From Tabrizicola sp. (GTDB taxonomy: Bacteria > Pseudomonadota > Alphaproteobacteria > Rhodobacterales > Rhodobacteraceae), in contig NZ_JAEULO010000045.1 in the NCBI RefSeq assembly GCF_016793705.1, forward strand, positions 1-64,000: a stretch of DNA of 64,000 nucleotides, in the 5' to 3' direction. This document shows, one piece after another, positions 26,792 to 30,838 of this stretch. The position numbers and the translations under genes were made by a program. The notes beneath the pieces are model-generated. The model was not told the DNA's origin and searched no databases. It saw only the letters and a list, made by a program, of their open reading frames with translations. Positions within the stretch are counted from its first letter, which is position 1, and each line of letters begins with the position of its first letter.

Positions 26792-27805
26792 ATGACCGAA
26801 GTCGAGCTTCAAGGCCTGCTCTCCGGCCTGCCGCTGCCCGCGATGCTGGTCCGGCAGGACGACCGGGTTCTTGCGGTGAACGCCCCGGGCCGCGCGCTCC
26901 TGGGCGAGGGGATCGCGGGCCGCCATCCCGCGATGGCCGTCCGCGCGCCCGCGGTGCTGGAGGCGATCGGGGCGGTCGCCCGCGAGGGCGGTGTGCAGGA
27001 GGCGCGGATGGTGCTCCGCCGCGAGGGGCAGGAGGCGGTGTTCCAGGTCACGGTTTCGGACCAAGGTGACGTCGTGCTCTGCATCTTCCGCGACGTGACG
27101 GAGGCGGAGCGGGCGGGCGAGATGAGGCGCGATTTCGTCGCCAATGTCAGCCATGAACTGCGCACGCCGCTCACCGCGCTGATGGGCTTCATCGAGACCC
27201 TGAAGCATGCCGCGAAGGACGACCCCAAGGCGCGCGAGGCGTTCCTGGAGATCATGGCGACCGAGGCGGGCCGGATGAACCGTCTGGTCCGCGATCTGTT
27301 GCAGCTCAGCCGGGTCGAGGCGGAGGAGAGGGTCCGCCCGCGCGACCCGGTGGACCTGCGGGCGCTGCTGGAGGGGGTGATCTCCTCGCTGGCGGGCGTG
27401 GCGGCGAAGACGGGGGACCGGATGGAGCTGTCGGGCGATCCAGTGGTGGTGCCGGGGGATGCGGACCAGCTGACCCAGGTCTTCACCAACCTGATCGAAA
27501 ACGCGCTGAAATACGGCGGCGCGGGGCAGGTGGTGCGGGTCACGCTTTCCCCGGAGGAGACGGCTCGCGGTCCGGCGGTGCGGGTGGAGGTGGCGGACGA
27601 GGGGGAGGGGATCGATCCGGTCCACCTGCCGCGGCTGACGGAGCGGTTCTACCGGGTCGACTCGCATCGGTCCCGCGAGATGGGGGGGACGGGGCTGGGG
27701 CTGGCCATCGTGAAGCACATCGTGAGCCGGCACCGGGGGTGGCTCCGGGTGGAGAGCGTGGTGGGCGAGGGGAGCCGGTTCTCGGTCATCCTGCCGCTGG
27801 GGTGA
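26792..27805 (+). CDS. Sensor histidine kinase, PhoR-like
   Basis: 337 residues without a membrane segment. An N-terminal PAS domain (about 5-105) is followed by the dimerisation/phosphoacceptor helix FVANVSHELRTPLTALMGF with H121. The ATPase domain then shows the N box TNLIENALKYGG, G1 DEGEGIDP and G2 GGTGLGLAIVKHIVS. The arrangement and the HELRTPLTALMGFIETL text match the PhoR kinases of Rhodobacterales, which control phosphate uptake with PhoB. No pst, phoU or phoB gene follows here; the next gene is the unrelated AT-rich deaminase. GAGGAGAAG lies upstream of the ATG. Confidence 0.88.
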   Translation: MTEVELQGLLSGLPLPAMLVRQDDRVLAVNAPGRALLGEGIAGRHPAMAVRAPAVLEAIGAVAREGGVQEARMVLRREGQEAVFQVTVSDQGDVVLCIFRDVTEAERAGEMRRDFVANVSHELRTPLTALMGFIETLKHAAKDDPKAREAFLEIMATEAGRMNRLVRDLLQLSRVEAEERVRPRDPVDLRALLEGVISSLAGVAAKTGDRMELSGDPVVVPGDADQLTQVFTNLIENALKYGGAGQVVRVTLSPEETARGPAVRVEVADEGEGIDPVHLPRLTERFYRVDSHRSREMGGTGLGLAIVKHIVSRHRGWLRVESVVGEGSRFSVILPLG

Positions 27806-28099
27806 GGTGGGGGCTAGCCAAGGGACTCCGTCTGTCCACGGTGGACATTTTCGGATTATGCTTTGGAGGCAATGGGTTGCGCGTGGGCGTTAGGGGTTTG
27901 TTAAGGGGGTGGTTAAGGGAGGGTTAAGGTCGAGTGTGTAGATTTCGACCTTGTCAACAGACGTTGGTCATGCGGTAGACTTAAGGCTGACTAACTGGAA
28001 AAAGCGGGAACCTTTAAGCGTGACGAATGATGTTGGTTCGAACAAGAATGTTTGGCAATATCGCAACTGAAAGCAGAGTAAGAGAGATTCGACACAGTC
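27806..28099. other. Non-coding leader between the histidine kinase and the anti-phage deaminase gene
   Basis: 294 bases. The first part carries a dispersed palindrome with tail (27833-27895) and three GTTAAGG units (27900-27928). A hairpin follows with 8-bp perfect arms AAGGTCGA (27926-27933) and TCGACCTT (27945-27952). From about 27960 the composition becomes AT-rich, like the following gene. In Vibrio the homologous avcD gene is preceded by an inhibitory small RNA (AvcI), so this leader is the place to look for one; nothing in the sequence proves it. Confidence 0.5.
27833..27895 (+). repeat. Dispersed palindrome TGTCCACNGTGGACA plus conserved tail, copy 2
   Basis: Palindrome 27833-27847 with central G, then GGGTTG at 27874-27879 (27 bases after the palindrome) and CGTTAGGG at 27888-27895 (41 bases after). 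The same three elements at nearly the same spacing are found in the copies at 31996 (same strand) and 60062 (opposite strand). Confidence 0.8.
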
Positions 28100-29659
28100 A
28101 TGGGTAACCCTGTTGTTAACTTGCATTCATCGACCGAGATCGCTGATGCCGAAAGCAAGAAACTAGCAAAGACAATTGATGATCGTCTATCTCAGGAGTT
28201 GGTTTTTGCTCTTGTCGGTCCAGTAGGTTCAGGCTGCTCTACCACTGCTTCAGAGCTTAAGAAAGAGCTTGAGAACACCTACAAGTACATGGTTCCTGAA
28301 ATCATCTCCGTTTCCGCCATTATCAGGCGATCAATGCACTTGGTGGGTGTTGAGAGCTGCGAAAAGTCCAACTTGGAGAAGTACGTTGCTTCAATGCAGG
28401 ACGCAGGGAATGCGCTTCGCAAGAGATTTGGTGAGGATTACCTCTCAAAGCGGATTGTTGAGTCGATTCATCGGTCCAGAAAGTCATTCGGTGCATTCGA
28501 TGAAGGCGCTATAATTCCAAAACGAATTGCATATGTTATCGACTCGATTAAGAATCTGGATGAGCTGAGGCTCCTACGAAAGATTTACAAGGAAACCTTG
28601 GTCCTTGTTGGCGTGTTTGCTCCTGATGCTCAGAGGAGTGCTCGCTTAAATTTTCAAGAAGTTTATCAGAAAGTCGTTGATCAATTGTTTCAGAGAGACA
28701 AAGGGGAAAAGTGGTCATTTGGACAAGCAACCCGGAAAGTCTTCACGCAGTCGGATTGGTTTGTCTGTAATGATAGTACTCTGGACGAGTTGAAGAGAAA
28801 GATTCGTAGGTTTTTGGGGCTGGTATTTGATATTGGCGTGCAGACTCCTACGAAAGCTGAGGCGGCGATGTACAAGGCAAACGCTGTTGCTGGTAACTCA
28901 GCCTGTCTGTCTCGCCAAGTTGGAGCAACGATAGTTTCGTCCCGCGGTGAGTTCATCGGGATGGGCTGGAACGATGTACCAAAGTTCGGCGGAGGGCTTT
29001 ATGACGAAGATACAAAAACTGAATCCGCGATTGACAATCGGTGTTACAATTGGGGTGGCAACTGCTGTCACAATGAAGTAACCCGCAATGGCATTACAAG
29101 AGCTATCTCTTCTTTGCTGCTCAACGCAGACTTCGTAAAGAAGGGGACAAAGCTGGCTGATGTTGTGGCGCATCTGTCTGATACGCCTGTTGATGCGCTT
29201 ACGGAGTTTTCTCGTTCGATTCATGCAGAGATGGAGGCAATTCTCTCAGTTGCCAGGGAAGGTAAGCACTCTCTTGTTGGATCGACACTGTATACCAACA
29301 CATATCCGTGCCATAACTGCGCACGACATATTGTTGCGTCAGGGATCGTAAAGGTTGTTTACATTGAGCCGTATTTAAAGAGTCATGCGACAAAGCTTCA
29401 CTATGATGCAATTACGGAAGATCCCGCAGATTCTGAAAGTAAAGTGTTCTTTCAACAGTTCGATGGTATCGCGCCAAGAAATTATCTTAAGTTCTTTAGA
29501 TCTGAGCGTGACCGAAAGGCCGAAGGCGGCACGTATCTCAAGGGAGACGTAAAAAATGCTTTGCCAAGGCTTAGAATCGCATTAGATGGTCCTGCACGGT
29601 ACGAGGATCTCATCATGGTTTCGCTTTTGGACCTTGACAACTCTGTTGGTGGAGTATGA
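28100..29659 (+). CDS. avcD: Anti-phage dCTP deaminase (AvcD/DcdV type): P-loop domain fused to deoxycytidylate deaminase
   Basis: 519 residues. The N-terminal half (about 30-240) is a nucleoside-kinase-like P-loop domain whose glycine loop reads GPVGSGCST (40-48), with cysteine in place of the usual lysine. The C-terminal half (about 255-500) is a cytidine/deoxycytidylate deaminase domain with zinc ligands H375 in HAEMEA and C404/C407 in PCHNC, and E377 as proton shuttle. An extra Cys/His cluster (C315, C322, C323, H324) precedes it. This two-domain architecture is that of AvcD/DcdV, which deaminate dCTP (and dCMP) after phage infection and starve phage DNA synthesis. GC is about 45% against about 65% around, so the gene is probably acquired. 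It overlaps the following 66-codon frame by four bases. Confidence 0.9.
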   Translation: MGNPVVNLHSSTEIADAESKKLAKTIDDRLSQELVFALVGPVGSGCSTTASELKKELENTYKYMVPEIISVSAIIRRSMHLVGVESCEKSNLEKYVASMQDAGNALRKRFGEDYLSKRIVESIHRSRKSFGAFDEGAIIPKRIAYVIDSIKNLDELRLLRKIYKETLVLVGVFAPDAQRSARLNFQEVYQKVVDQLFQRDKGEKWSFGQATRKVFTQSDWFVCNDSTLDELKRKIRRFLGLVFDIGVQTPTKAEAAMYKANAVAGNSACLSRQVGATIVSSRGEFIGMGWNDVPKFGGGLYDEDTKTESAIDNRCYNWGGNCCHNEVTRNGITRAISSLLLNADFVKKGTKLADVVAHLSDTPVDALTEFSRSIHAEMEAILSVAREGKHSLVGSTLYTNTYPCHNCARHIVASGIVKVVYIEPYLKSHATKLHYDAITEDPADSESKVFFQQFDGIAPRNYLKFFRSERDRKAEGGTYLKGDVKNALPRLRIALDGPARYEDLIMVSLLDLDNSVGGV

Positions 29660-29856
29660 GCCGCCGCGATTCGGATCGACAGTATGCGCTCCCGTTCGGC
29701 GAGGGGAGCTCGCCGAGGGCAGACGCAGGTGTGTTTGGCCGTAAGGTGGTTGCCTTTTCCGATGCCCTTGACGAGAGAGAGCGTCTTGAAGCTCTTCGTC
29801 GGCTGAAGTCGGAGAAGATCTTTGACACATCGCGATATGACAAACTGCTGAAGTGA
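29656..29856 (+). CDS. Small protein of unknown function coupled to the anti-phage deaminase gene
   Basis: 66 residues. Its ATG overlaps the deaminase stop (ATGA), the usual mark of translational coupling. The protein has a polar, arginine/glycine-rich N-terminus (QYALPFGEGSSPRADAGVFG) and a C-terminal charged helix (DERERLEALRRLKSEKIFD). It resembles no family I know. It has no signal peptide or membrane segment. It might be a partner or modulator of the deaminase. GC is intermediate between the deaminase gene and the chromosome. Confidence 0.65.
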   Translation: MSRRDSDRQYALPFGEGSSPRADAGVFGRKVVAFSDALDERERLEALRRLKSEKIFDTSRYDKLLK

Positions 29857-29905
29857 CGGACTTCAAGACATCACTACGGTGGTGTATGCCCTCTGTATCC
29901 TCACC

Positions 29906-30838
29906 TCACAACCTCCCCAACCGCTCCGTCAACAGCCGGTAGAACCCCTCCCGGTCCACGGAGCCCATGAACATTGCGTTGGGCTCTCGCCCCGTCACGC
30001 GCCACCAGTCGGCGACGGTCATGCCGAGGGTGAGCTCCGATCCCGTCTCGATCTCCACGTTGATGTGGCGGCCGTGGAAGAGGGCGGGCTCGATCAGGTA
30101 GGCGATCACGCAGGGGTCGTGCAGGGGGGCGCCTTCGGAGCCGTATTTGGCGGTGTCGAAGCGTTCGAAGAAATCGGTCCAGGAGGCGACGGCCTGGCCC
30201 ACGGGGGTGCCGAGGGCGCGCATCTCCTCCACCCAGGCGCGGGAGGTCAGGGCCTTGTGGGTGACGTCCAAGGGCATGACCACAAGGGGAACGCCGGATT
30301 TGAACACGATGTCAGCGGCTTCGGGGTCGACGTAGATGTTGAACTCGGCCGCGGGGGTGACGTTGCCGACCTCGAAATAGGCGCCGCCCATCAGGACGAT
30401 CTCGGCCACGCGGGGGATGATGTCGGGGGCGCGGAGGAAGGCGGTGGCGATGTTTGTCAGGGGGCCGAGGGGGCAGAGGGTGATGGTGCCTGCCGGGTGG
30501 GCGCGGAGGGTGTCGATGATGTGGTCGACGGCGTGTTGGGGTTGGAGGGGGAGTGAGGGCTCGGGCAGCGGGATGCCGTCGAGGCCGGTCTTGCCGTGGA
30601 CGTATTCGGCGGTGACGAGCTTGCGCCTCAAGGGCGCGTCGCAGCCGGCGTAGACGGGGATCTGGTGGCCGGAGAGTTCAACGATCTGGCGGGCGTTGCG
30701 GGTGGTGAGGGGGAGGGGCACGTTCCCGGCGACGGTGGTGAGGGCGAGGACCTCCAGTTCCGGCGAGGCGAGGGCGAGGAGGATGGCGACGGCGTCGTCC
30801 TGGCCGGGGTCGGTGTCGATGATGATCTTGCGGGGCAT
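29906..30838 (-). CDS. Nucleoside hydrolase (IunH family)
   Basis: 310 residues. Splits the N-glycosidic bond of purine or pyrimidine ribonucleosides. The calcium-binding N-terminal DTDPGQDDA (D10, D14, D15) is intact, as is the C-terminal GAPLHDPCVIAYL aspartate. The catalytic-pocket LMGGAYFEVGNVTPAAEFNIYVDPEAA is also conserved. Normal high GC, unlike the AT-rich deaminase gene to its left, toward which it is transcribed convergently; 49 bases separate the 66-codon frame from this stop. The functional theme (nucleotides) is shared, but shared ancestry of the two loci is not indicated. Confidence 0.93.
   Translation of the reverse strand: MPRKIIIDTDPGQDDAVAILLALASPELEVLALTTVAGNVPLPLTTRNARQIVELSGHQIPVYAGCDAPLRRKLVTAEYVHGKTGLDGIPLPEPSLPLQPQHAVDHIIDTLRAHPAGTITLCPLGPLTNIATAFLRAPDIIPRVAEIVLMGGAYFEVGNVTPAAEFNIYVDPEAADIVFKSGVPLVVMPLDVTHKALTSRAWVEEMRALGTPVGQAVASWTDFFERFDTAKYGSEGAPLHDPCVIAYLIEPALFHGRHINVEIETGSELTLGMTVADWWRVTGREPNAMFMGSVDREGFYRLLTERLGRL

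Follow-up and report, generated by a model that had tools for sequence, protein, structure and literature searches.

AvcD and DcdV belong to one family of anti-phage dCTP deaminases. AvcD is reported to deaminate dCTP as well as dCMP (PMC10511110), and in Vibrio it is described as restrained by an RNA that is lost on phage infection (PMC10511110, PMC12409362). This RNA antitoxin, AvcI, is reported to be encoded upstream of avcD (PMC9455884); its transcript is given as just under 300 nt and its minimum functional length as ~171 bases (PMC10511110). As to what restrains and then triggers a nucleotide-depleting defence enzyme, the published answer for AvcD is that the RNA antitoxin is lost once the phage halts host transcription (PMC10511110, PMC12409362). 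Here we analyse a stretch of 64,000 nucleotides from a Tabrizicola sp. genome (contig NZ_JAEULO010000045.1, positions 1 to 64,000; hereafter the window), which carries a gene for a 519-aa AvcD/DcdV-family deaminase and, overlapping its stop codon, a gene for a 66-aa protein that we call the partner. If the proposal made below is true, control by a conserved protein that bears a clamp-type motif would be a second route, linked to replication.

The Vibrio AvcID system and the system in the window share the two-domain enzyme family, as judged by profile, and the expected chemistry (dCTP/dCMP to dUTP/dUMP). In both the inhibitor would be encoded beside the enzyme gene, provided that the window partner is inhibitory. 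They differ in that the Vibrio inhibitor is reported to be an upstream RNA (PMC10511110, PMC9455884, PMC12409362), whereas the conserved neighbour in the window is a downstream overlapping protein gene with a clamp-type motif. Clover, composed of the dGTPase CloA and CloB, is alike in that a partner gene's product keeps a nucleotide-pool-depleting anti-phage enzyme in check, but CloB is described as an enzyme making an inhibitory nucleotide (PMC12265719), which a 66-aa partner is unlikely to do. SocAB and RipA are toxin-antitoxin proteins reported to act on the hydrophobic pocket of the sliding clamp; in these the toxin attacks the clamp (PMC12795458), whereas in the window it is the partner that bears the clamp-type motif, and a deaminase serves as effector. 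In searches of an open-access library, a scope that does not take in the founding papers (Hsueh 2022, Tal 2022), we found no protein partner or clamp motif described for AvcD/DcdV. The main features of the locus are as follows.

28100..29659, + strand: AvcD/DcdV-family anti-phage dCTP deaminase, 519 aa, ATG start (open reading frame, profiles, structure model)
Within 28100..29659, + strand: degenerate P-loop kinase-like domain, then dCMP/dCTP deaminase domain (Foldseek, Pfam)
29656..29856, + strand: 66-aa partner gene, its start and the deaminase stop sharing ATGA (open reading frame; conservation and selection in relatives)
29680..29697, + strand: clamp-binding-like hexapeptide QYALPF, partner residues 9-14 (motif pattern)
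29728..29814, + strand: C-terminal module, partner residues 25-53, made up of the stretch that aligns with the gammaproteobacterial upstream ORF and the predicted helix 37-53 (profile alignment, model)

The 519-aa protein is a member of the AvcD/DcdV family, with profile matches far beyond chance. NF041025, the NCBIfam model for anti-phage dCTP deaminases, scored 441.8 bits against a cut-off of 400 and aligned over profile positions 1-437 of 437 (residues 33-473), and the PADLOC dCTPase model scored 511.7 bits; the partner matches neither library. PF00383 of Pfam matched residues 251-422. The AlphaFold model of the deaminase (pLDDT 73.0, pTM 0.73) was matched by Foldseek to the adenylate-kinase-related structure 3lw7 (TMt 0.81, rmsd 3.4) and, more loosely and with gapped alignments, to dCMP deaminases, the human and T4 enzymes among them (TMt 0.57-0.72, rmsd 6-14). 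The initial annotation had described a 519-codon frame with GPVGSGCST at residues 40-48, HAE at 375-377 and PCHNC at 403-407, all of which are found at those positions; it had named the product an AvcD/DcdV enzyme and proposed a profile search and a structure prediction, and both bear the name out. The enzyme itself is a further member of a known family, and it is expected to deaminate dCTP and dCMP and to starve phage DNA synthesis. Where the initial annotation was incomplete is in having missed the overlapping, conserved partner gene. Among the 394 genomes searched, 328 gave a deaminase match at E<=0.001, mostly weak and over the zinc motif, and five, the source genome counted, passed the cut-off.

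A tblastn search with the partner alone returned no significant match besides its own (next best E 0.69), and a profile was therefore needed. In the lists of open reading frames (ORFs) after related deaminases, the same kind of small protein recurs. We built a profile from 12 partners, the window's included, and scored it on 546 frames downstream of deaminases (loci L003-L009, L032-L105 and L141-L160) and on 5100 control frames, the best of which reached 8.7 bits. Loci outside the alignment exceeded this value: L049 with 66.3 bits, L043 with 52.4, L078 (the same locus as L104) with 21.2, L045 with 14.3, L147 with 13.6, L141 with 11.0, L143 with 10.2 and L145 with 10.0 bits. In the two clades of the deaminase tree that have the window's type of partner, a downstream small ORF is present in 22/22 rows whose contig continues past the gene. 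ORFs of at least 45 codons near a stop are common by chance, so that presence alone proves nothing; of the 21 ORFs besides the window's, 16 beat the controls, ten of these being members of the profile. The partner types marked on the tree were assigned by eye once the ORF lists had been read, hence not blind, and the profile scoring against control frames serves as the objective check.

The coding sequences of the partners point the same way. The L033 and L034 partners differ by five synonymous changes and one non-synonymous change, and the proportion of non-synonymous differences (pN) was lower than that of synonymous differences (pS) in every pair compared, with pS/pN values of 0.73/0.21 for L040/L042, 0.83/0.32 for L032/L047 and 0.59/0.33 for both L036/L044 and L037/L044. 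The partner is thus conserved, is under purifying selection and behaves as a translated gene in the relatives; in the source host it is presumably translated as well. Against Pfam, PHROGs, PADLOC and NCBIfam it gave no significant match, the best Pfam score being 13.4 bits, below the cut-off.

The partner consists of an N-terminal clamp-binding-like motif, a variable linker modelled with low confidence, and a C-terminal module made up of VVxF followed by a helix (residues 37-53). The motif near the N-terminus has the form Q-[LMFYI]-x-[LMF]-x-[FL]; clamp-binding motifs also occur in a hexapeptide form. It reads QYALPF in the window and QLSFDF, QMPLDF, QLSLEF, QLDLDF or QLELDF in relatives. The loose form was present in 18 of the 24 partners counted (L034, a near-duplicate of L033, was left out), against a mean of 0.51 and a maximum of 4 in 5000 shuffles. 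The strict form was present in half of them (12/24; shuffle mean 0.20), and the window's copy is not among these. Neither form was found in any of 12 ORFs of the upstream type described below. The L043 motif, QLSFNL, was found later and stands outside the count. Of five viral-contig partners fetched after the patterns had been set, L141, L143, L145 and L149 conform, L147 being the exception. For clamp binding, QL[S/D]LF is the published consensus (PMC3716654).

Host proteins gave mixed results as controls. An HdaA-like protein of the host begins VIRQLAFDL and is like the partner in having an N-terminal hexapeptide of the same type, QLAFDL; it is unlike the partner in being DnaA-related (NF006571, 206.7 bits, below the cut-off of 297), and the likeness considered here is that of the motif only. 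In DnaE the sequence is QNSLF, which the pattern used would miss, and a wider pattern also matches unrelated reading frames. The DinB-like host protein had no clamp-motif match. Near the C-terminus of the deaminase itself no clamp motif was found among 72 rows, and a few matches lie further inside.

Other relatives of the deaminase, among them plasmid-borne ones from E. coli, Klebsiella, V. coralliilyticus and Photobacterium, have an ORF of 50-78 aa just upstream of the deaminase gene, and in these gammaproteobacterial-type relatives no downstream partner gene of the window kind was seen. Seven annotated records of this type were fetched, and five of them list the upstream ORF as a hypothetical protein. 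When the downstream and upstream partner profiles were compared, the VVxF-helix part aligned with a score of 20.9 (single-comparison E 5.6e-4), which was reached by 0/200 column shuffles (maximum 10.45); the reversed profile scored 8.3. The L142 upstream ORF reads NVVAFSSLRERKKEDEHKKAL where the window partner, at the matching place, reads KVVAFSDALDERERLEALRRL. The upstream ORFs also had lower pN than pS (0.31 vs 0.63 for L091/L096; 0.27 vs 0.53 for L152/L153), and their length is close to the ~171-base minimum of AvcI. The C-terminal module of the downstream partner thus appears to resemble the upstream ORF, which lies on the same side of the deaminase gene as the reported AvcI.

Partner type follows the deaminase tree: the five labels require 12 changes, compared with a shuffled mean of 45.5. 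The tree has 82 rows and holds no Vibrio cholerae sequence; open frames below 440 aa were left out, as were the duplicates or second hits L001, L003, L036, L048, L065, L074 and L104, and L002 is another deaminase. In the window's clade 15 of 16 rows have the downstream small partner, and the remaining one, L035, ends with its contig; in a second clade all seven rows have it. The upstream-type clade has 21 rows, of which 16 were labelled; L160, unlabelled, also has the ORF, and in L146, L148, L150 and L157 the match starts less than 90 bases from the end of the stored sequence. A further clade has a larger partner of 150-200 aa in 10 of its 13 rows, L090 being cut and L056 and L156 having none that we saw. 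Such large partners lie downstream of the deaminase in L052, L053, L054, L055, L058, L068, L082, L083, L094 and L101, and motifs among them read QLSLF (L094), QLQLF (L068/L076) and QLDLF (L054). A by-eye label of these proteins as DUF488-like was dropped, as the three that were scanned had no Pfam match. Another downstream ORF of ~60 aa occurs in six rows, five of them of one clade, and no partner was found in 14 rows belonging to two basal clades.

Two observations on the wider distribution may be added. In the ~60-aa class (L057, L059, L060, L061, L099, L103) several members have an ELxxWPxWMK-like sequence. Deaminases on viral contigs (L141, L143, L145, L147, L149 and L151-L154) have a small partner upstream or downstream, so that prophages or satellites may be further carriers of the module.

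We propose, with about even confidence, that the two genes form an anti-phage module in which an AvcD/DcdV deaminase is joined by a dedicated protein regulator that probably links the enzyme to DnaN. From sequence we infer the binding partners, the direction of regulation and the trigger as follows. The product of the large gene would deaminate dCTP and dCMP and starve phage DNA synthesis, and that of the small overlapping gene would be its dedicated regulator. The partner probably binds the deaminase through its C-terminal VVxF-helix module and the sliding clamp DnaN through its N-terminal hexapeptide. The deaminase would then be held at the replication machinery, with its activity tied to the state of that machinery, and phage damage to host replication, or use of the clamp by the phage, would release or aim the enzyme. 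More tentatively, and short of even confidence, we suggest that much of the DcdV/AvcD family may be under small-protein control, instead of or besides control by RNA. In the clades of the window type the clamp hook would wire the enzyme to the replisome and sense phage effects on replication, and the gammaproteobacterial upstream ORF would be a relative of the same protein. A published spectinomycin result (PMC10511110) counts slightly against this wider suggestion.

Several points weigh against a clamp-linked protein regulator. AvcI, the antitoxin that has been characterised, is an RNA. The motif is short, its patterns were set after the first sequences had been seen, 6 of the 24 partners lack even the loose form, and the Leu of the published consensus is replaced by Tyr in the window. 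The labelled partners L050, L051, L066, L067, L093 and L149 do not exceed the control frames on the partner profile. AlphaFold models the partner with low confidence (pLDDT 64.5), and the hhalign probability for the alignment of the downstream and upstream profiles is only 29.9%, over 28 columns. For the large partners, the loose motif was found in 5/10 (shuffle mean 0.39), a count that is not beyond every shuffle, since the maximum in 5000 shuffles is also 5; L076 and L089 were dropped from this set and L101 was added, the earlier count having been 5/11.

The alternative that survives best, and which we regard as rather unlikely, is a plain type II-like antitoxin, whose C-terminal module inhibits the deaminase and whose hexapeptide has as its target not the clamp but the deaminase or a protease. 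The overlap, the small size, and the low-confidence N-terminal half with a C-terminal helix recall small antitoxins, and the C-terminal module resembles upstream ORFs that have no hexapeptide. A docking role limited to the deaminase or a protease fits less well with the hexapeptide type being present at the N-terminus of the host HdaA-like protein, and with QLSLF, QLQLF and QLDLF recurring in a second, large class of partner.

An ordinary AvcID-like type III system, in which RNA of the 170-nt leader upstream of the window's deaminase inhibits the enzyme and the 66-aa ORF is incidental or minor, is clearly unlikely in our judgement. It has a precedent in the upstream AvcI RNA described as the Vibrio inhibitor (PMC10511110, PMC9455884, PMC12409362), and the reported AvcI minimum of ~171 bases is close to the 170 nt of the leader (PMC10511110). 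We found nothing like an AvcI RNA in the leader by folding, leader alignment or Rfam. Folding was no better than that of shuffles (z -0.81; 44/200 shuffles at least as good), and when the leader was aligned with those of 10 relatives only L033 and L034 aligned together, the window's aligning with none. Rfam gave no match in the leader, the presence of an AvcI family in Rfam not having been checked; its sole match in 27700-30000 was to sR53 (29890-29936, minus strand), which is outside the leader and sub-threshold (24.7 bits, gathering 49). As RNA antitoxins diverge fast, these nulls are weak negative evidence. The conservation of the small ORF and the purifying selection on it in relatives also argue against its being incidental.

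We likewise hold it improbable that the partner serves, without any inhibition, to activate or target the deaminase, delivering it to forks that use the host clamp and so having dCTP destroyed at the site of phage replication. The joining of a clamp-type motif to a shared, deaminase-linked module would suit such a factor, but the deaminases of the basal clades, where no partner was found, exist without one, and local depletion of a diffusible substrate would gain little. Finally, a housekeeping dCMP deaminase of the ComEB/Dcd kind, acquired by chance and without an anti-phage role, is most improbable: the deaminase domain does resemble the T4 and human dCMP deaminases, but the ComEB model gave 47.5 bits against a cut-off of 219.45 whereas the anti-phage model passes its own, and the gene sits at a junction that carries defence genes in relatives.

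To compare individual residues of the deaminase we used an alignment of the 82 rows, the window included. The residues concerned are located as follows.

29222..29320, + strand: zinc deaminase catalytic motifs HAE (375-377) and PCHNC (403-407) (alignment)
28217..28243, + strand: degenerate Walker-A-like loop GPVGSGCST, residues 40-48 (alignment)
28904..28906, + strand: Cys269, first of the conserved Cys triad 269/315/323, a likely second metal site (alignment)
29042..29068, + strand: Cys315 to Cys323, the remaining two Cys of the triad (alignment)

The catalytic residues H375, E377, C404 and C407 are kept in all 81 rows that have residues there, the remaining row being a gap. The initial annotation had suggested that the Cys in place of the Walker lysine might bear on how the enzyme is switched on. 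The C46 column holds V, L, I, M, C, T, S and others, and Lys in 0/82 rows; loss of the lysine is therefore not particular to the window protein, and we dropped Cys46 as a special switch. Lys occurs one column further on (residue 47) in 13 rows (8/21 of the upstream type, 1/6 and 4/19 of others), so that an off-by-one alignment is possible there.

A Cys/His cluster at 315-324 had also been noted initially. Its cysteines hold up, C315 and C323 being conserved together with C269, whereas H324 varies among the 82 rows and was dropped as a member. The three positions are Cys in 57/57 rows of three clades, namely every row of the downstream-small, upstream-type and large-partner clades, and no other row has the triad. 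In the other 25 rows Asp occupies the first position in 23, and an acidic residue is found at the second in 24 and likewise at the third in 24. A phmmer alignment pairs C269 with Cys19 of the T4 deaminase 1vq2, a residue which we take to be a ligand of the T4 enzyme's second zinc; this stretch alone scores only 7.0 bits. The triad is likely a second metal site, as predicted from these alignments. The joint shift from Cys to mostly acidic residues between clades suggests a change of metal at this site.

The two genes lie in an AT-rich insert between phoR and the hydrolase gene:

27930..29902, no strand: AT-rich insert, 47.6% GC, ~2 kb, comprising the 170-nt leader, the deaminase, the partner and a short tail (relatives, composition)
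26792..27805, + strand: left flank, PhoR-like histidine kinase, named by eye without a family scan (same-genus relatives)
29906..30838, - strand: right flank, nucleoside hydrolase-like gene, named by eye without a family scan (same-genus relatives)

The GC content of the deaminase gene is 46.5%, compared with 65.9% for the window, and at third codon positions it is 46.7%, compared with 91.7% in phoR and 92.6% in the hydrolase gene. This agrees with the initial description of an AT-rich gene in GC-rich DNA. The five other genomes of the genus that were searched with the deaminase profile gave no match at E<=1e-30. In a search of the genus (21 genomes, the source included), phoR and hydrolase matches were found on one contig in eleven other genomes, and a twelfth, G1631, has only a 72-base piece of phoR beside the hydrolase. 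We compared the junction in ten of the eleven, G1637 being left out. The flanks match the window in 10/10 relatives, and the sequence between them differs from the window's in all ten. Composition, the lack of matches at this threshold in the five genomes and the differing junctions uphold the earlier view of an acquired gene. The edges of the insert are approximate: the left lies at ~27925-27932, near 27930 in the five of the ten relatives that were aligned there, and the right lies at most a few bases from the stop codon of the hydrolase gene (29906-29908), which is the edge in 10/10 relatives. Repeats in 27800-29950 were short pairs only, none of them flanking the insert, and a promoter and terminator scan gave signals no better than those of shuffles. 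No recombinase was noticed among the junction ORFs listed (27806-29905 of the window; L126-L135), not all of which were scanned.

Eight ORFs from seven of the ten relatives were scanned with PADLOC (L128, L131 and L135 were not included). The scan identified a dGTPase in L127 (305.6 bits), PDC-S20 in L130 (249.2 bits), an NsnA-type protein in L134 (110.8 bits; DUF262 by eye), AbiTii in L133 (54.4 bits) and a weak ApeA match in L126 (34.3 bits). It returned no match for the two ORFs of L129 or for L132; by eye, both loci carry a pair resembling a GNAT toxin-antitoxin. The junctions of L128 and L135 are only ~0.8 kb long and lack a clear gene. We conclude that the phoR/nucleoside-hydrolase junction is a compact defence-cargo hotspot in the genus, in which systems replace one another, because the same junction holds dGTPase, AbiTii, DUF262 and PDC-S20 genes in relatives. 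Further handles are the Cys-to-acidic change of the triad between clades and this hotspot, a single junction that is filled by a dCTP deaminase in one sister species and by a dGTPase in another.
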